From positions 1-64,000 of the forward strand of contig CALGNN010000049.1 in NCBI GenBank assembly GCA_937961455.1: a stretch of 64,000 nucleotides of DNA. Reading direction: 5' to 3'. The notes under the pieces were generated by a model, which made no database searches, had not been told where the DNA came from, and worked only from the letters and a program-made list of their open reading frames with translations. Positions 41,635 through 56,043 of the stretch are shown piece by piece. Numbering within the stretch: position 1 is the first letter of the stretch; the number at the start of each line of letters is the position of its first letter. The translations under genes and the position numbers were made by a program. This DNA comes from an uncultured Saprospiraceae bacterium. Its GTDB lineage: Bacteria > Bacteroidota > Bacteroidia > Chitinophagales > Saprospiraceae.

Positions 41635-42210
41635 ATGAAATTTTTAATTAATTTAATCTTGATGCTTTTAGTTTTATTTCTTGGGTTCGTATTGTATAAA
41701 TCCGTACAAGAACCCATCTCATTTAAAACTGAAAAAACGAAAAGAGATAAGTCTGTGCAAAGTCGTTTAATGCAAGTTAGGACCGCACAAGAGATGTTTA
41801 GAGGAATAACAGGTAAGTATGCACATAACTTTGATACCCTAAGTCAAGTGCTGAAAACTGAAGATTTTGCCAATGTCATTGTAATGGGAGATCCAGATGA
41901 TCCTACGGGTAAATCGGTTTTCTATGATACGATATTTGTGCCAGCTATTGATTCTGTAGCTACAATTGGTTTTAATATTGATTCATTAAGATACATTCCT
42001 TACAGTGGAGGTAAGACCTTTGATATTCAAGCAGATACATTGACTTATCAAAGTACGCTAGTGAATGTTATGGAAGTAAAGACTTTAGTATCCAACTACA
42101 TGGGTCCTTTTGCACATGTCAGATATAGTAAATATGATGATAAATATGATCCTGGCAATTACATGAAGATTGGAGACATGAGTAAGCCAAATACCTCTGG
42201 AAATTGGTAA
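41635..42210 (+). CDS. Single-pass, pseudopilin-like membrane protein
   Basis: The 191-residue protein has one N-terminal membrane helix (about 4-22) and then a basic helix (KTEKTKRDKSVQSRLMQVRT) leading into AQEMFRGITGKYAHNFDTLS. This layout, an N-terminal hydrophobic helix running into an amphipathic helix and then a globular domain with GKYxxxFDTL, resembles pseudopilins but lacks a leader peptidase site. It overlaps the DUF3822 gene by seven bases, so the pair is probably co-translated. Function is unknown. Confidence 0.7.
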   Translation: MKFLINLILMLLVLFLGFVLYKSVQEPISFKTEKTKRDKSVQSRLMQVRTAQEMFRGITGKYAHNFDTLSQVLKTEDFANVIVMGDPDDPTGKSVFYDTIFVPAIDSVATIGFNIDSLRYIPYSGGKTFDIQADTLTYQSTLVNVMEVKTLVSNYMGPFAHVRYSKYDDKYDPGNYMKIGDMSKPNTSGNW

Positions 42211-43037
42211 GAGAGCGCTTAAGTCTCACACATCCTCAATACGAAAAATTAACAAAATCATCAGACAAACTGTTTGCCCTAATTGGAGCAAACAGTTTTT
42301 TTTATTTGATCAGCTCTGAATCTGGGGCATATTTGTCTAGTGCTCATATTCATTTTACAAAATCTTCAATTTTGGCAGGTGAGACTGATTGGATGATTTC
42401 TAAAATGCTTGATTATGAGGATCGATTTTTTGATGAATTTGAAGAAGTCCACTTTGGTATGCTTAAAGCTCCTTTCACAGTGCTGCCTAGCCAACTAGGT
42501 AAAGCAGAAAAAAAATGGTTAGACTTTGCACTTCCCAAAGACAAAAACGAAAATTATTATGAAAATGAAATTGAGGGGCAAGAATCCTCCTTACATTTTG
42601 TGTTGCGTGATTCCTTTGTCGAAAATGCAGAAATGTATTTTTCTGAAATTTCCTATCACCATATTGTAGCATGCTTAATTAAGGAATTCAAAAAGTCTCA
42701 ACAAGACGGACTATTTTGTTTGTGGCGAGAACAGAGGCTCTATGTTATTTTGTTTGAAAAAGGCTTATGTAGTTTTCAAAATAATTTTACTGTTTTCAGT
42801 AATAAGGATTTACTATATTTTATAAATCTTGTTTTCTTGCAAAGAAATTTAGTGAAGGAGCGCACCAAAATATGGTTATCAGGTGGCATTGATTTAGAGG
42901 CCATGGAATTAGTCAAAAAGTATTTCCCTGTTGTAGGCCGTCCGGTAAATGATAGCTTTGAAGGAATATTCAAAAATAATGACATCAGTTATGCTGATGT
43001 AGTTGATTTAATTGCCTTAAGTACATGCGGATCATAG
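42204..43037 (+). CDS. DUF3822 family protein
   Basis: The 277-residue product resembles DUF3822, a Bacteroidota family commonly next to rsmD. Visible elements are FFYLISSESGAYLSSAHIHF, KAPFTVLPSQL (a TLVP-like strand seen in PilM/GspL-type ASKHA proteins) and a late KIWLSGGIDLEAMEL strand-turn. It has no signal peptide. The start is TTG at 42204, inside the end of the previous gene, because no ATG occurs in the first 70 codons. It overlaps rsmD by 13 bases. Function is unknown. Confidence 0.78.
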   Translation: MVRERLSLTHPQYEKLTKSSDKLFALIGANSFFYLISSESGAYLSSAHIHFTKSSILAGETDWMISKMLDYEDRFFDEFEEVHFGMLKAPFTVLPSQLGKAEKKWLDFALPKDKNENYYENEIEGQESSLHFVLRDSFVENAEMYFSEISYHHIVACLIKEFKKSQQDGLFCLWREQRLYVILFEKGLCSFQNNFTVFSNKDLLYFINLVFLQRNLVKERTKIWLSGGIDLEAMELVKKYFPVVGRPVNDSFEGIFKNNDISYADVVDLIALSTCGS

Positions 43038-43573
43038 GAGGAACATTTAAAGGAAGGAGATTTAATCCTCCAGCAAAAAATTGGCCGACTCGACCTACTA
43101 CAGATATTTCTAAAGAAGGGCTTTATAACATCCTGGCCAATAGTGTTGATTTTGCTTCTATTAGTTTTCTAGATTTATTTGGAGGGACGGGCAATCATTG
43201 TTACGAGTGCATCTCTCGTTCTTGCACAGATGCTACTTATGTTGATAAGCATGGTCCCTGTATAAAGTTTGTAGAGAAAACAGCAGAAACCTTAGAGATT
43301 ACTGAATATCTAAAAGTCATAAGGTCTGATGTATTTAAATTTTTAAGTAATAATAAACGTTCCTTCGATCTGATTTTTGCAGGCCCACCTTATGGTTTGA
43401 AAAACCTTGATGATATCCCGGATAAAGTTTTCTTATCTCCAGCTGTTCATGAACACACCATCTTAGTATTGGAACATAACCCTAATCATAATTTTGAAAA
43501 TCATATACATTTTCAAAAAATGAGAAATTATGGCCAAACCATTTTTAGTTTTTTTTCTTTGTCTTCTATATAG
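43025..43573 (+). CDS. rsmD: RsmD-like 16S rRNA methyltransferase with altered active site
   Basis: RsmD methylates N2 of G966 in 16S rRNA with SAM. The 182-residue protein has the family start MRIIGGTFKGRR, RPTTDISKEGLYNIL and the SAM loop FLDLFGGTGN (48-57). Two places are unusual: after the SAM loop it reads HCYECISRSC instead of a pattern like ISYEFASRG, and the catalytic [DN]PPY motif reads GPPY at 120-123 (GGC at 43382). Loss of the Asp would be expected to impair catalysis. The frame is otherwise intact and the gene overlaps DUF3822, so it is called a CDS, not a pseudogene. Confidence 0.85.
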   Translation: MRIIGGTFKGRRFNPPAKNWPTRPTTDISKEGLYNILANSVDFASISFLDLFGGTGNHCYECISRSCTDATYVDKHGPCIKFVEKTAETLEITEYLKVIRSDVFKFLSNNKRSFDLIFAGPPYGLKNLDDIPDKVFLSPAVHEHTILVLEHNPNHNFENHIHFQKMRNYGQTIFSFFSLSSI

Positions 43574-48942: not shown

Positions 48943-51900
48943 ATGAGAATGTCCAAGCTAAGAAGATTTTTTATCGCTTTATTTTTCCTGCATTTTACAT
49001 CCCTTGTAATTGCTGAAGGAACTAGAGAATTGTCACCTACACCAAGTGATGAGTTGATGCTTTTAATCAACAGTAATGATTACGGAGATTTTGGGGTTTT
49101 TGATGGGCTCGCAGCCTCCCGATTAAATATCAGTATCTGGGACGATACTGTTGAAGAGGTTTTCTTTGGCCTTTCATGTTCGGCAGATAATCTTGGAGCT
49201 CCAGATGGTGGGTACTGGTTTCAAGTAAAAGATCCTTTAGGCAATGTGGTTCATGGTCCATTCTTTGTCGATTGTACAACGGCTAATGCGAATACTCATG
49301 CACTTGCTGCTGCAGGTCCTGATGTATTATCAGCAGGAGGATATGATACAAGCCCAGCATATGCTTCTTTTAACCCTACTTCAGGGATTGGGGATTATTA
49401 CGTTGAATTTAGTGAAAACATGGTGGGGAATGGTTTTTTCTCCTTTAACATAAAATGGTTTGATATAACTGTCGTCGCAAATGGTGTAACTGAAATGCCT
49501 GGAAGAATCAATTCTAGAAATTGGGCTTTCAGATCTCCTACCATAGACATAGACCCACCTGATTGTGATTATGACAGAGAATTTAATGGAGCGGTATATT
49601 CTTACACTCAGGATGGTTTTGTAACCAAGTTAGATTTTGCAAATTCTGGATTTAAAGGCTTAGCTTTTAGTCTAGTTTTCAATTCGACAGGTCCAGGTAC
49701 AAGTGGCAATTTGATTATTGATCGTCGATCCGTCAACTTTGCCAATGCTACCTTGAATGCTGCAGAACATAGAATTTTCTTGAATGAACCTGATATTGAT
49801 TGCTTCCCTTCAAGTCAAGATGCTTGTGGTGAAGCTACACTTTCAAGTGTATCTTGTGATGGCAGTTCCTACTGCATAAATGTAGATGTTGAAAATGTAG
49901 GTCAAATTGAAGTCTTATTAGATTTCTTTGGTGGTAATGGCGTTTTCGATCCTGGAACAGAAGATGTATTGATCGTTGAAAGTTTTACGGCCACAAGTAC
50001 AGTTTGTCTTGAATGGGATTTACTAGATGGTTTAGGAAATTCCGTGGATCCAACAGGTAACATTCCTTTAGTTTTAACTTATACTCAAGGCGTACAACAC
50101 TATTCAGCTTTTGATGTCGAAAGATTAGAAAATGGATTTTGTGTTGAAACCATACGACCTATTTGTTCAGCACTTACTTCGGATTTACTCTATTGGGATG
50201 ATTCGAATATTGTTGATGATTTTTCTACCACATTCATTGATGAAAGTGATCCAGGCACCGGACAGCCAACCATTCAGTTAGCAGGTTGTTCTTGTCAAAC
50301 TGGTGGATGCAGAACTTGGACAAATTTCCAAGTTGGCGAAGATGCAAGTAATTGTGATGGAAGTCCACATGGTTATGGTGAAGCAAGTACTTTGAATACA
50401 TGGTGGTTTGCAGCCACTACAGTTTCACCAATACTTACAGTAGCATTGCCTAGTGTAGATGTAGTAGGTGTTTCTGAAGTTTGTCCAGGAGATGAAACAG
50501 AATTTTCTGTGACCTCTACCTTAGCAGATATTTCTCAATTTGACTACTCATGGACGGGACCTAATGGTTTTGTTGCAAACACTGCCACTACTGGTTCTAT
50601 TTCTGAGCCGGGAGAATATTGTGTTACCGTTATAGATGGCATATCTGGTTGTACCATGATGGACTGCTTAACTCTGTCAAATGCTGGAGGAGCGGGAGCT
50701 TTAACTTGTCCTCCGACCTCAAATATAAATTGTGGCGATGTGGTTCCTGAATTTGCTACACTTACAGAATTTCTTGCTGCTGGTGGTACAGTTGGAGATG
50801 CAGCTGCAGTTTTAAGTTTTACATTACAAAGTTCAGTTACTGTGTCTGGAGCTTGCCCTGCATATGAAACTGTAACAAATACTTATGCAATAACAGACGA
50901 CTGCGCAGTAGCTATTACTTGCGAGCATACTATCATTATTTCAGATGCTACTCCTCCTTCTATTATGGATTGTCCAATAGATGTTACCGTAGAATGTGGT
51001 GATTCTACAGACCCTGCTGATACAGGAACTGCAGTTCCAGGTCCTGATGGTTGTGGAGATGATGTTTTATCATTTAGTGATGTTGTTATGGGTGGTAATT
51101 GCCCAGATGAAATGATTGTAATGAGAACTTGGAGTGTTACGGATGGATGTGGTACCGCAGCAAGTTGTACACAAAATATTTTAATATCAGATTTTACACC
51201 TCCCTTAATTATTGATCCTATCCCAGATGATGTAACTGTAGAATGTGCTTCTTTGGTACCTGCACCTGCAACGCTTGCAGTAACGGATAATTGCGGAGCA
51301 AGTCTTATGATTATGCCTACTGATGTGATCTCTGACATGACCTGTGCCAATTCATTTACCATTACAAGAACATGGACCGTTTCTGATCCTTGTGATAATG
51401 TAACTTCAGGCGTGCAAATAATCACGGTGAATGATACAACAGATCCTGTGATAACCTGCCCAACTAATATTTCAATCAGTTGTTCAGCAAATTTAGATCC
51501 AGCCAATACAGGTATGGCTACAGCAACAGATAATTGCGGTGGAGCACCTGTGATAACTTTTACAGATGTAACCATTGGATTTGACGGTACATGCACAGGT
51601 AATACGATCGCTACTGTAGAGCGTACGTTTGTAGCAACTGATGCTTGTGGATTATCTTCTTCATGCACACAAATAATAACACTGATAGATGATGTTGCTC
51701 CAATTGCTGTTTGCCAAGATATAACAGTTGATTTTGCTGGTAGTAATACCGTTTCAATTGTTCCTAGCCAAGTAGATGGTGGAAGTTCTGACGCTTGTGG
51801 AAGTAACTTAACTTTCAGTTTAAGTCAAACGGATTTTGATTGTACGACTGTTGGTGTGAGTGAAACTGTTACACTTACCGTTACAGATGAATGCGGCAAT

Positions 51901-54900
51901 TCATCGAGTTGTACTGCAACAGTTACCTTCCTCTCAAGTACTTTAGTTGACCTAGGATGTCCAAGTGATACAGTAGTTGTCTTAGCTTCTGGCTTATGTG
52001 GAGATATTGTTAATTATGATATTTTCGCTTCGAATGCTTGTGGCGTTATTCCTGATGTTACTCAAACGGATGGAACAGGATTTACTTCTGGTGATTACTT
52101 TGAAATTGGAACATACTTCCAATCTTATCAAGCAATTAACTCTGATGGAGATACAGCTACCTGCGAGTTCACGATAGAAGTGGTAGAGGCAACAATAGAT
52201 AATACGAGTTTGACCTGTGTAGGTCAAATTAACTTTTCACTTGATGAAAATTGTGAAGGGCTTATAACCCCAACCATGATCATTCAAGGAGAAATTGGAT
52301 GTGAAGATAATTATGAAATAATCGTATGTGCTGGACCTAATGGACCAGATATTCCTACAAGTCCGATGGTGACAGGAGATTACATAGGTGATACACTCTA
52401 TGTGAAAGCTTGTGAAATTACAACTGGCCTTTGCTGCTGGGGAATTGTAGTGATCCAAGATAAAGGTATTCCAGATTTAGTTTGTGAAAATGATACCATC
52501 GCTTGTGCTGATGATATAGATCCTTTCGTTCTTGGTTTTCCAGCAGATGGACCTGTAAATCCAATCTTGATAGGTACCAATACTTATCAAATAAATGGAA
52601 TCGACGCATGTGGAGGAGCAACCTTAAGCTATGATGATACAGTAATTCCTCAGCCTTGCTCTAGTCCTTACATAAAATTAATACAAAGAGATTGGGACAT
52701 TGTTGATGACTATGGAAATAGTTCATCATGTACCGAAGAAATATACATTTTAAGATCACAGCTTGAAGATGTTACACTTCCACCAGATTTCGATGGAATT
52801 GCTAATCCAATGATATCTTGTAATAGCTCTTGTGCTATTCAAGGATTACCCACCTCGTGTACTGGAGAGCCAGGAGGATTGAATTGCGATAATTTGATTG
52901 CAGTTTATGAAGACGAAATTTTACCACTTTGCGGACCTAATTATAAGGTGCTTAGAACTTGGACTATTTTAGATTGGTGTACAAGTGAATTCTTCTTGCA
53001 TTATCAAGTTATTAAAGTACAGGGAGATGGTCCTACGATTAATTGTCCTGCGGACATGACGATAGGTGCATTTGGCTATGGATGTACTGGGACTACTCAG
53101 TTGCCAATGCCAGACGTATTTTTAGCTTGTAATAATAATGACTACACTTATACTTATGAAGTAGAAGTAGAAAATGGAACCGTAAGTTCTTTCGGACAAG
53201 TATATCAAGTTTCGGGTCTATTACTTGGAGACAATGAGGTGACTTACATCGCTACAGACGAATGTGGAAATAAAGCAGAGTGTAGTATGACTGTAACAGT
53301 TGTAGATGATATTCCACCAGTTGCGATTTGTGATGAGTTTACAGTTATTTCACTTAATGCTACAGGTGAAGTTACAGTTGATGCAATAGGATTTGATGAT
53401 GGTTCTTATGACTATTGTGAAATTGACTACTTTGAAATTAGAAGAGTGAATTTTGGTCCTTGCAACAATGTTTCCTTCAATACAACGAATTTTGGACCAA
53501 CAGTATCCTTCTGTTGTGAAGATGTAGCTCAAGGACCTATCATGCTAGAGTTGAGAGTTTGGGACGTGAATGGCAATAGCAATATTTGCTCAATAGAAGC
53601 AACCATTCAAGATAAAGTTGCACCTGAAATAGAATGTCCTGCAGATATTACATTGACCTGCGGAGATGATATTGACTTGGTAGCCCTATCTAATGTTTTG
53701 GATGATACTTATGGTACTATTTCAGTTTCAGGAAATTGTAATAGTTACAACATTGATATAGAAGTTTTTGATAATAGAGTTTGTGGCTTAAGCCCACTTG
53801 ATGCAAATGGAAATTATTTACCAGCGATATCTAGATACGCAACGGTAAATAGTGGAAATGGAACTTCTCAGTGTTTTCAGAATATATACATTATAGATAA
53901 TGATCCATTCAATGGTAATGATATAACCTGGCCTCAGAACTATGATTTAGGTTGTATGGATGATACGGATCCAGAATCATTACCTGACGGCTTTGATGTT
54001 CCAGATTATCAACAAGCTGGCTGCGGCCTCATAGCCGTAAGTTATGAAGATGCTGTTTTTTATCAGGAGGATGGATTCTGTATGAAGATTTTAAGAACTT
54101 GGACAGTTATTGATTGGTGTCAGTTTGATCAATCAAATCCTGGTGCAAATGGCATATGGACCTTTACACAAGTGGTTAGAGTTGATAATACAACAGCTCC
54201 GGTAATTACTTCTGCTTGTAGCAATGTTTCAGTTTGTGCCTTTAGCGATACTTGCCAAGGAGAACAAATTGAATTAACCGCAACGGCAGAGGATGATTGC
54301 GATGGAGCAAATCTCGATTGGGAGTATGAAATTGATGCCTTTAATGATGGATCAATTGATATCACTGGAAGCACAAATGATGCAACAGGTGATTATCCTG
54401 TTGGAACACATACCATTACTTGGACAGTTACTGATCAATGTGGGAATAGCAGCAGTTGCTCTTATCAATTCGAAATTACAGATTGTAAAAAACCAACACC
54501 TGTTTGCATAAACGGTCTTTCAACTGTTATCATGCCTACCACTGGTGAAGTAACCATCTGGGCATCAGATTTTGAAGCAGGAAGTAGCTTTGATAATTGC
54601 ACAGATTATGATGACTTACAATTTTCATTTTCAAGTGATGTAAATGAAACGAGTCTAACGATCACATGCGATGACATACCTAATGGTATGAGCGCTAGTA
54701 TTATGGTTCAGATTTGGGTGACTGATGAAGCGGGTAATCAAGATTTTTGTGAGACCTTCATTTTGGTTACAGATAATGACGATGTTTGTACTGATATTTC
54801 ACTAGCTAATGTTGATATATTCGGTACCATTATGACAGAAAATAATTTACCGGTATCTGAGGTGAATGTCTATTTGAAGAGCAATGATCCAGCAATAGAT

Positions 54901-56043
54901 GATATTATATATACAACTACAGAAAGCGGAAATTTTGCATTCTCTTCAGTTGAAGTAGGGCACGATTATAATTTGACACCATTTAGAGATGATAATTATA
55001 TCAATGGTGTTACGACCCTAGATTTAGTAGCAATTCAAAAACACTTGTTAGGAATCCAATCTTTGGATAGTCCATATAAGATGATAGCTGCAGATGCCAA
55101 TAACTCATCTGGAGTTTCAGCAATTGACATCATAGAAATACGAAAATTGATTTTAGGTGCGATTGATGATTTCCCACATAACTATTCTTGGAGGTTTGTT
55201 CAAGACAGACCAGATGCAATGTCGCCAAATAATCCTTGGCCATTTACCGAAATGTATGATTACCTTGATTTGAATTCAAGTGAATTGCAGGAAGGTTTTG
55301 TTGCGGTCAAAGTTGGAGATGTAAATCAATCTGCGAGTACTTTCTTAACTGATTTAGAAGATAGAAATGATGATGAATTACTATTTAGTATTCAAGATCG
55401 TTTGATCAAATCTGGAGAGAAAGTGGATGTATCTATTGCTGTAAATCAAGATGTTGATCTTTCTGCATTCCAGTTTACTTTGGCTTCAGAATCATTGAGA
55501 CTTCTTTCAATGAATGCTCCAAGCCTCGTATTTAATAATTACAATAGTGCTAAAATTAATGAGAGTACAAGTACAGTAAGCTGGCATGATATTACCTCAG
55601 CTCCATTGAAGGCTGGTGATATCATTTTGAATATAAGCTTCGTAGCCACTGAAAGTGGTCAGTTGAGCGAAATGATGGAGTTTGGTTCAGACATAACAGA
55701 ATTGATATTCTATGATAAAAATTCTAATAGCTACACAGCAAACTTCAATTTTGAAAAAACATCTGTTAAAGATGAAGACCTAAGTTTTGCTTTGTATCAA
55801 AATGTACCGAATCCATTTGAGAAGCAAACTAGAGTTGATTTTTATCTACCTAGTGAATCAGACTTCGTTCTTAATATTTACAATATCGAAGGTAGCTTGA
55901 TAAAGCAAATCGCTGATTCAGGTTCCAAAGGTGTAAATAGTTTGAATATCACAGCTGATGAATCATTATCAGCAGGTATTTATTACTATCAATTAAGTGC
56001 GGGTTCTCATACGGCCACGAAAAAATTGACCATTATCAAATAA
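48943..56043 (+). CDS. Giant secreted HYR-domain protein with dockerin-like and T9SS domains
   Basis: The 2366-residue product has a signal peptide (1-25), N-terminal beta-rich domains (about 30-500) and a PKD-like segment (about 505-580). A long series of Ig-like HYR-type repeats (from about 590 to 1940) shows recurrent DxTPPxIxCPxDxTxxC and VTDxCGNxSSC patterns. A carboxypeptidase-regulatory-like domain (about 1955-2010) is followed by a dockerin-like pair of Ca2+ helices (about 2020-2080: GVTTLDLVAIQKHLLG; GVSAIDIIEIRKLILG), a cohesin-like beta region (about 2150-2270) and a T9SS type A sorting domain (about 2280-2366, NVPNPFEKQTRVDF). It is expected to be a surface or matrix adhesin. No enzyme domain is seen. 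Confidence 0.9.
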   Translation: MRMSKLRRFFIALFFLHFTSLVIAEGTRELSPTPSDELMLLINSNDYGDFGVFDGLAASRLNISIWDDTVEEVFFGLSCSADNLGAPDGGYWFQVKDPLGNVVHGPFFVDCTTANANTHALAAAGPDVLSAGGYDTSPAYASFNPTSGIGDYYVEFSENMVGNGFFSFNIKWFDITVVANGVTEMPGRINSRNWAFRSPTIDIDPPDCDYDREFNGAVYSYTQDGFVTKLDFANSGFKGLAFSLVFNSTGPGTSGNLIIDRRSVNFANATLNAAEHRIFLNEPDIDCFPSSQDACGEATLSSVSCDGSSYCINVDVENVGQIEVLLDFFGGNGVFDPGTEDVLIVESFTATSTVCLEWDLLDGLGNSVDPTGNIPLVLTYTQGVQHYSAFDVERLENGFCVETIRPICSALTSDLLYWDDSNIVDDFSTTFIDESDPGTGQPTIQLAGCSCQTGGCRTWTNFQVGEDASNCDGSPHGYGEASTLNTWWFAATTVSPILTVALPSVDVVGVSEVCPGDETEFSVTSTLADISQFDYSWTGPNGFVANTATTGSISEPGEYCVTVIDGISGCTMMDCLTLSNAGGAGALTCPPTSNINCGDVVPEFATLTEFLAAGGTVGDAAAVLSFTLQSSVTVSGACPAYETVTNTYAITDDCAVAITCEHTIIISDATPPSIMDCPIDVTVECGDSTDPADTGTAVPGPDGCGDDVLSFSDVVMGGNCPDEMIVMRTWSVTDGCGTAASCTQNILISDFTPPLIIDPIPDDVTVECASLVPAPATLAVTDNCGASLMIMPTDVISDMTCANSFTITRTWTVSDPCDNVTSGVQIITVNDTTDPVITCPTNISISCSANLDPANTGMATATDNCGGAPVITFTDVTIGFDGTCTGNTIATVERTFVATDACGLSSSCTQIITLIDDVAPIAVCQDITVDFAGSNTVSIVPSQVDGGSSDACGSNLTFSLSQTDFDCTTVGVSETVTLTVTDECGNSSSCTATVTFLSSTLVDLGCPSDTVVVLASGLCGDIVNYDIFASNACGVIPDVTQTDGTGFTSGDYFEIGTYFQSYQAINSDGDTATCEFTIEVVEATIDNTSLTCVGQINFSLDENCEGLITPTMIIQGEIGCEDNYEIIVCAGPNGPDIPTSPMVTGDYIGDTLYVKACEITTGLCCWGIVVIQDKGIPDLVCENDTIACADDIDPFVLGFPADGPVNPILIGTNTYQINGIDACGGATLSYDDTVIPQPCSSPYIKLIQRDWDIVDDYGNSSSCTEEIYILRSQLEDVTLPPDFDGIANPMISCNSSCAIQGLPTSCTGEPGGLNCDNLIAVYEDEILPLCGPNYKVLRTWTILDWCTSEFFLHYQVIKVQGDGPTINCPADMTIGAFGYGCTGTTQLPMPDVFLACNNNDYTYTYEVEVENGTVSSFGQVYQVSGLLLGDNEVTYIATDECGNKAECSMTVTVVDDIPPVAICDEFTVISLNATGEVTVDAIGFDDGSYDYCEIDYFEIRRVNFGPCNNVSFNTTNFGPTVSFCCEDVAQGPIMLELRVWDVNGNSNICSIEATIQDKVAPEIECPADITLTCGDDIDLVALSNVLDDTYGTISVSGNCNSYNIDIEVFDNRVCGLSPLDANGNYLPAISRYATVNSGNGTSQCFQNIYIIDNDPFNGNDITWPQNYDLGCMDDTDPESLPDGFDVPDYQQAGCGLIAVSYEDAVFYQEDGFCMKILRTWTVIDWCQFDQSNPGANGIWTFTQVVRVDNTTAPVITSACSNVSVCAFSDTCQGEQIELTATAEDDCDGANLDWEYEIDAFNDGSIDITGSTNDATGDYPVGTHTITWTVTDQCGNSSSCSYQFEITDCKKPTPVCINGLSTVIMPTTGEVTIWASDFEAGSSFDNCTDYDDLQFSFSSDVNETSLTITCDDIPNGMSASIMVQIWVTDEAGNQDFCETFILVTDNDDVCTDISLANVDIFGTIMTENNLPVSEVNVYLKSNDPAIDDIIYTTTESGNFAFSSVEVGHDYNLTPFRDDNYINGVTTLDLVAIQKHLLGIQSLDSPYKMIAADANNSSGVSAIDIIEIRKLILGAIDDFPHNYSWRFVQDRPDAMSPNNPWPFTEMYDYLDLNSSELQEGFVAVKVGDVNQSASTFLTDLEDRNDDELLFSIQDRLIKSGEKVDVSIAVNQDVDLSAFQFTLASESLRLLSMNAPSLVFNNYNSAKINESTSTVSWHDITSAPLKAGDIILNISFVATESGQLSEMMEFGSDITELIFYDKNSNSYTANFNFEKTSVKDEDLSFALYQNVPNPFEKQTRVDFYLPSESDFVLNIYNIEGSLIKQIADSGSKGVNSLNITADESLSAGIYYYQLSAGSHTATKKLTIIK

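Follow-up and report, generated by a model that had tools for sequence, protein, structure and literature searches.

A GPPY variant of the RsmD homologue in a Saprospiraceae bacterium and its order, with a second site that co-varies with the missing aspartate

A homologue of the 16S rRNA methyltransferase RsmD in which motif IV reads GPPY in place of DPPY was found in contig CALGNN010000049.1 of an uncultured Saprospiraceae bacterium (assembly GCA_937961455.1), of which positions 1 to 64,000 were analyzed and are called the window here. Glycine at residue 120 is an order-wide trait and is not private to the window genome; the GPPY form is clade-wide and under purifying selection, and residue 120 is coupled with residues 153, 172, 124, and 152. 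Read from these sequence comparisons, the enzyme has probably been rebuilt rather than broken, and the GPPY RsmD may quite possibly be active on G966, with the role of the aspartate taken over by residues 152 and 153.

Distribution and retention of Gly120

Motif IV of RsmD is worded (D/N/T)PP(F/Y) in the part of PMC9083416 available to us, and the GPPY at residues 120 to 123 departs from this wording, codon 120 being GGC at positions 43382 to 43384. A sequence-only reading of the window had pointed to this glycine at the place of an expected aspartate or asparagine, in an intact reading frame coupled to a DUF3822 gene. These points were borne out by the codon, by the Pfam match to PF03602, by the 182-amino-acid (aa) length of the frame, and by its 13-base overlap with the DUF3822 gene at 42204 to 43037.

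Among the first 54 relatives, which came from 60 related genomes, 44 have Gly and 10 have Asp at residue 120. For counts by clade, 220 loci were reduced to 218 relatives by keeping one sequence per genome; not every match was fetched, and the aligned genomes numbered 149 from the order, 39 from other orders of the class, and 30 from the rest of the phylum. The comparison with close relatives that the sequence-only reading had proposed revealed Gly120 to be clade-wide, with Gly in 39 and Asp in 9 of the 48 sequences of the window's own family, Gly in 90 and Asp in 11 of the 101 sequences from the rest of the order, and Gly in 129 of all 149 aligned relatives from the order. Outside the order, none of 69 relatives has Gly120 and all have Asp, 39 of them coming from elsewhere in the class and 30 from the rest of the phylum. 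When the genomes of the order were searched with a DNA pattern written strictly for DPPY, 38 of 396 matched, the remainder not all being confirmed as GPPY.

A set of relatives from named genomes was also compiled, consisting of the best 80 of 507 relatives, for which the search patterns accepted either G or D as residue 120. GPPY was found in 32 of these 80, including Lewinella cohaerens DSM 23179, two other Lewinella, Puia dinghuensis, Paraflavisolibacter caeni, a Chitinophaga niabensis metagenome-assembled genome (MAG), Hydrotalea, and Sediminibacterium, and DPPY was found in Chitinophaga sp. sic0106 and a Flavipsychrobacter stenotrophus MAG, among others. A literature search, with most subscription papers outside its reach, found no GPPY methyltransferase and, judging by abstracts, gave nothing on RsmD in Chitinophaga.

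An assembly or sequencing error in the window genome had been raised in the sequence-only reading, and GGC does lie one base from GAC. Such an error is vanishingly improbable, as the same glycine occurs in 129 of the 149 relatives from the order and in independent genomes that include named isolates, all four glycine codons are used, and the window carries the partner motif N152-P153 as well. The codons for Gly120 were GGA in 46, GGT in 40, GGC in 38, and GGG in 28 cases, codons not being recoverable for 38 of the 349 sequences used in the second-site counts below. Because about half of these codons lie two steps from an Asp codon, Gly120 has long been held.

Inactivity through decay, which the sequence-only reading had also put forward, is disfavored by low ratios of nonsynonymous to synonymous substitution (dN/dS) together with the invariance of many residues, those of the S-adenosylmethionine (SAM) site among them, and by the co-evolution of positions at the rim of the active site. 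By the Nei-Gojobori method, dN/dS ranged from 0.011 to 0.075 in 19 GPPY pairs (median, 0.04) and from 0.015 to 0.097 in 17 DPPY pairs (median, 0.07); the pairs were formed between near relatives from other parts of the order, none belonging to the window's genus. All 130 GPPY rows agree at R2, G6, R23, P24, T25, D50, G54, G56, E61, S64, R65, P121, P122, Y123, E150, and Y169. SAM-binding motif I, given as Dx(F/G/Y)xGxG in the accessible part of PMC9083416, is present in the window protein as D50-L-F-G-G-T-G56. The His-Cys pair at residues 58 and 59 (CAT TGT at 43196 to 43201), which had been taken for an altered neighbor of the SAM loop, was rejected as an anomaly and is ordinary variation among the first 54 relatives, 33 of which have His58 and 9 of which have Cys59.

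Residue 120 is coupled with residues 153, 172, 124, and 152

Between GPPY and DPPY rows, column 153 was the one that differed most, after column 120 itself. After removal of duplicates from 355 rows, 349 unique sequences were available for second-site counts. Gly120 is accompanied by Pro153 in 171 sequences and lacks it in 14, and Asp120 is accompanied by Pro153 in 7 and lacks it in 157. Residue 152 is D, N, S, or T in 184 of the 185 GPPY proteins (the remaining one has His) and in 92 of the 164 DPPY proteins, and the combination of such a residue with Pro153 is found in 171 of 185 GPPY versus 2 of 164 DPPY proteins. Thr172 occurs in 180 of 185 and 48 of 164, respectively. In the named set, Pro153 is present in 32 of 32 GPPY and 1 of 48 DPPY proteins.

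To a gene tree built without columns 120, 124, 152, 153, and 172, models of dependent and independent change of the Pagel type were fitted. The dependent model was favored for Pro153 and residue 120, with a likelihood ratio (LR) of 77 in a single run, and the LR was 88 for the (D/N/S/T)-Pro pair and residue 120. In a scan of 181 columns, 17 of which were too uniform for scoring, column 153 ranked first of 164 (LR, 80), followed by columns 172 (LR, 56), 124 (LR, 43), and 152 (LR, 40); for the scan as a whole, the median LR was 9.5 and the 95th percentile was 27. According to the fitted rates, Gly120 was gained only in a Pro153 background, and its loss was more than a hundredfold faster without Pro153 (4.2 versus 0.03).

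About 15 to 17 changes of residue 120 are required by the gene tree with its weak branches collapsed. One parsimony reconstruction gave 11 Gly-to-Asp and 5 Asp-to-Gly changes, the direction of single switches being dependent on the reconstruction, and 10 of the 11 Gly-to-Asp switches led to clades without Pro153, nested Gly lineages aside; the exception, G567, retains Pro153. Both forms can be found within one genus. Among the fetched members of one genus (g310), nine GPPY proteins have EHTP at residues 150 to 153 and five DPPY proteins have EHTR or EHTQ, and another genus (g276) contains three GPPY proteins and two DPPY proteins (EHDK and EHGT). A smaller tree, built earlier from 164 rows, had 7 changes and only 3 independent pairs on branches with good support, too few for a sign test.

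Across the order, the catalytic residue itself may, more tentatively, have been relocated, in the sense that a (D/N/S/T)-Pro would have been lost at residue 120 and gained at residues 152 and 153, with many toggles between the two states and with Pro153 as the permissive element. Alternatively, the GPPY protein could be an ordinary enzyme forming N2-methylguanosine at position 966 (m2G966) that has no need of the aspartate, the two prolines sufficing through their backbone carbonyls and the (D/N/S/T)-Pro pair serving as a mere packing partner. The 14 GPPY proteins without Pro153 would fit such an enzyme, but the restriction of residue 152 to D, N, S, or T in 184 of 185 GPPY proteins is hard to explain by packing alone, and we regard this alternative as distinctly unlikely.

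Active-site model, proposed target nucleotide, and candidate functions

The AlphaFold2 model of the window protein, made with 20 aligned sequences (mean predicted local distance difference test score [pLDDT], 92.2), has the RsmD fold. Its best solved match was RsmD of Mycobacterium tuberculosis (6m1c; Z, 25.1; 176 residues; root mean square deviation, 1.9), and the top five VIA-align rows were all RsmD-like methylases, with Z values of 23.0 to 25.1. Homology to RsmD, as represented by Escherichia coli YhhF (2fpo) and M. tuberculosis Rv2966c (3p9n and 6m1c), extends over the whole length, and the fold is shared (Z, 23.0 to 2fpo). The N-terminal RIIGG..RPTTD, motif I, PPY, and E150 are common to these proteins, whereas the window protein has Gly for the motif IV Asp. 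At position 153, the five solved RsmD sequences have K, T, K, V, and K as read from the alignment, and Pro in none. Strands were modeled at residues 116 to 119, directly before residue 120; at 146 to 151, directly before residues 152 and 153; and at 172 to 178, of which residue 172 is the first. The strands of the class I methyltransferase sheet are ordered 3-2-1-4-5-7-6, and from this order residues 120, 152 to 153, and 172 of the model would be neighboring strand ends at the active-site edge of the sheet.

In the reading that we favor, Gly replaced the motif IV Asp, and an (N/S/T/D)-Pro pair would have arisen in the loop that follows strand 5. The GPPY RsmD would still bind SAM and would still methylate N2 of G966 in helix 31 (h31) of 16S rRNA. 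The task of Asp120, namely, to serve as hydrogen bond acceptor for the amino group of the target and to position that group in front of the SAM methyl group, would pass to residue 152 (Asn in the window), whose side chain would be held by Pro153, and the backbone carbonyls of the GPPY prolines would act together with residue 152. We infer both the catalytic replacement and the G966 target from sequence.

A comparison can be made with RlmJ, the 23S rRNA m6A2030 methyltransferase, for which we rely on the accessible portions of PMC3814359. RlmJ, too, is an amino-methyltransferase; its motif IV reads DPP(Y/F), and one residue of its motif VI faces the target base. It differs in family, in target, and in that its Asp is required, the D164A replacement of the DPPY Asp abolishing activity (PMC3814359). 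Its motif VI residue W195, which is poised to stack on the target base, lies 31 residues past D164 (PMC3814359), and N152 of the window protein lies 32 residues past G120.

Several points weigh against the favored reading. Because the D164A variant of RlmJ is inactive (PMC3814359), an enzyme with an uncompensated Gly120 would be expected to be dead. Coupling would also be expected from a loop that merely repacks round the absent side chain, 14 of 185 GPPY proteins do without Pro153, and 7 of 164 DPPY proteins have it. The gene tree is that of one short gene, with support below 80 for 131 of its 346 branches. The protein scores 91.3 bits with TIGR00095, the NCBIfam equivalog model for RsmD, which is below the cut-off of 117.5, and the h31 pattern described below had no match in the window's genome or in the assemblies of its family.

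The RlmJ result (PMC3814359, as far as accessible) also speaks for a non-methylating protein, retained because it binds RNA at helix 31 of the 30S subunit as an assembly or checkpoint factor, with the loop changes repacking the emptied active site; RsmD also seems to be missing altogether from certain other families of the class. Such a factor is unlikely, however, in view of the invariance of D50, G54, G56, E61, S64, and R65 in 130 of 130 GPPY rows, and repeated Gly-to-Asp switches within genera would have to restore a catalytic residue after the supposed loss of catalysis. METTL14 is a conserved homologue of amino-methyltransferases that is catalytically dead, has lost the acid of the (D/N)PP motif IV, and acts in a heterodimer with an active paralogue; unlike the case of METTL14, no RsmD paralogue was found in the window genome.

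A search with the Rfam 16S model recovered 16S rRNA in only 5 of 33 genomes, and a short h31 pattern was used instead. Helix 31 was readable in 19 of the 149 genomes of the order, and position 966 is G in 19 of 19. These include 15 genomes with an aligned GPPY RsmD, in all 15 of which G966 is thus kept, one with DPPY (G051), and three without an aligned RsmD. G966 is also present in the GPPY genome of P. caeni, h31 having been read in 1 of the 14 genomes behind the named loci. At position 967, A is usual in the readable genomes of the order, with C in G051 (L231, DPPY) and G in G038 (L247, GPPY). Position 967 was rejected as a driver of residue 120, A967 being found inside the order and also in Bacteroidota outside it. 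No rRNA modification data for the order were seen in literature searches with the same limited reach, which included m2G966 in Bacteroidetes and rRNA modification in Flavobacterium johnsoniae.

Repurposing, likewise raised in the sequence-only reading, is also conceivable: the GPPY enzyme could be active but modify a different atom or nucleotide, its specificity having changed early in the order and reverting in DPPY lineages. Five rim positions (120, 124, 152, 153, and 172) have changed in concert, which would suit a retargeted enzyme, as would the C967 of G051, the sole DPPY genome of the order with a readable h31, most others having A967. But G966 is unchanged in every readable genome, A967 occurs outside the order as well, so that position 967 does not track residue 120, and the N-terminal RPTTD and the YG motif, common to DPPY RsmD, are unchanged. 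We consider retargeting as improbable as the non-methylating factor.

The locus and its wider meaning

Table 1. Features of the RsmD locus in the window
Feature	Positions	Strand	Basis
DUF3822 gene, upstream	42204..43037	+	PF12864, 75 bits; 3' end overlaps RsmD start by 13 bases
RsmD homologue (PF03602), GPPY variant, 182 aa	43025..43573	+	Pfam match, intact frame
SAM-binding motif I and neighbors, residues 48-59 (FLDLFGGTGNHC), intact	43166..43201	+	Reading frame
Ser66, private to the window	43220..43222	+	Only Ser in 349 sequences; Gly in 342/349
Motif IV, residues 120-123, GPPY in place of DPPY	43382..43393	+	Reading frame
Gly124, co-varies with Gly120 (P/A/G/K in most GPPY proteins)	43394..43396	+	LR 43 as Pro, 66 as P/A/G/K
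Thr145, rare	43457..43459	+	Gly in 339/349
E150-H151-N152-P153, second-site motif, end of strand beta5	43472..43483	+	Co-variation with residue 120
Thr172, second-ranked co-varying position, starts last strand	43538..43540	+	LR 56

The open reading frame (ORF) at 43025 to 43573 matches PF03602 over residues 1 to 177 with 111.4 bits (cut-off, 24) and is the sole strong match in the genome; the gene is single copy. Judged by its sequence, it is orthologous to RsmD, comes from a Saprospiraceae-type bacterium, and is part of the order-wide GPPY variant. As motif IV departs from the published wording and the equivalog score lies below its cut-off, the name m2G966 methyltransferase should be held back, and the protein is best described as a member of the PF03602 or RsmD-like family. 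A second, DPPY-containing RsmD paralogue was considered as a takeover enzyme and rejected, none being found in the genome. Only one other PF03602-like match was obtained, at 20 bits (G000:C141); this 257-aa protein has NPPY and is TrmN-like, its score of 155 bits with the corresponding model being below the cut-off of 350.

A DUF3822-like frame adjoins RsmD at 52 of 103 GPPY loci and 38 of 131 DPPY loci, as found by a search with a single sequence. No viral relatives were confirmed. Ser66 and Thr145, which the sequence-only reading had not noted, are not single read errors, because each needs at least two base changes, the TCT codon of Ser66 being at least two bases away from every Gly codon; they possibly represent local drift or a structural adjustment of the window's lineage.

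Elsewhere in the class, RsmD appears to have been lost in the families f27, f28, and f29. Their genomes (G106, G129, G133, G168, G203, G223, G242, G246, and G250) have a stated completeness of 100% and contain only weak PF03602 matches (best E values, 9e-7 to 9e-11), the match of G133 lying inside a 406-aa frame. The window also contains, at 48943 to 56043, a 2366-aa ORF with many repeated Cys-containing segments and a C-terminal stretch resembling a secretion or sorting domain.

The Asp or Asn of motif IV is treated as a signature of amino-methyltransferases and is used as such in annotation, and the GPPY proteins are a warning that a single motif is insufficient for calling such proteins dead. 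A Gly that occurs order-wide, is under selection, and has a co-evolving partner amounts to a natural double-mutant cycle of residues 120, 152, and 153, which bears on the real role of the Asp and on whether catalysis can relocate. It also raises the question of G966 methylation, at a base of the ribosomal P site, in Chitinophagales and Saprospirales.
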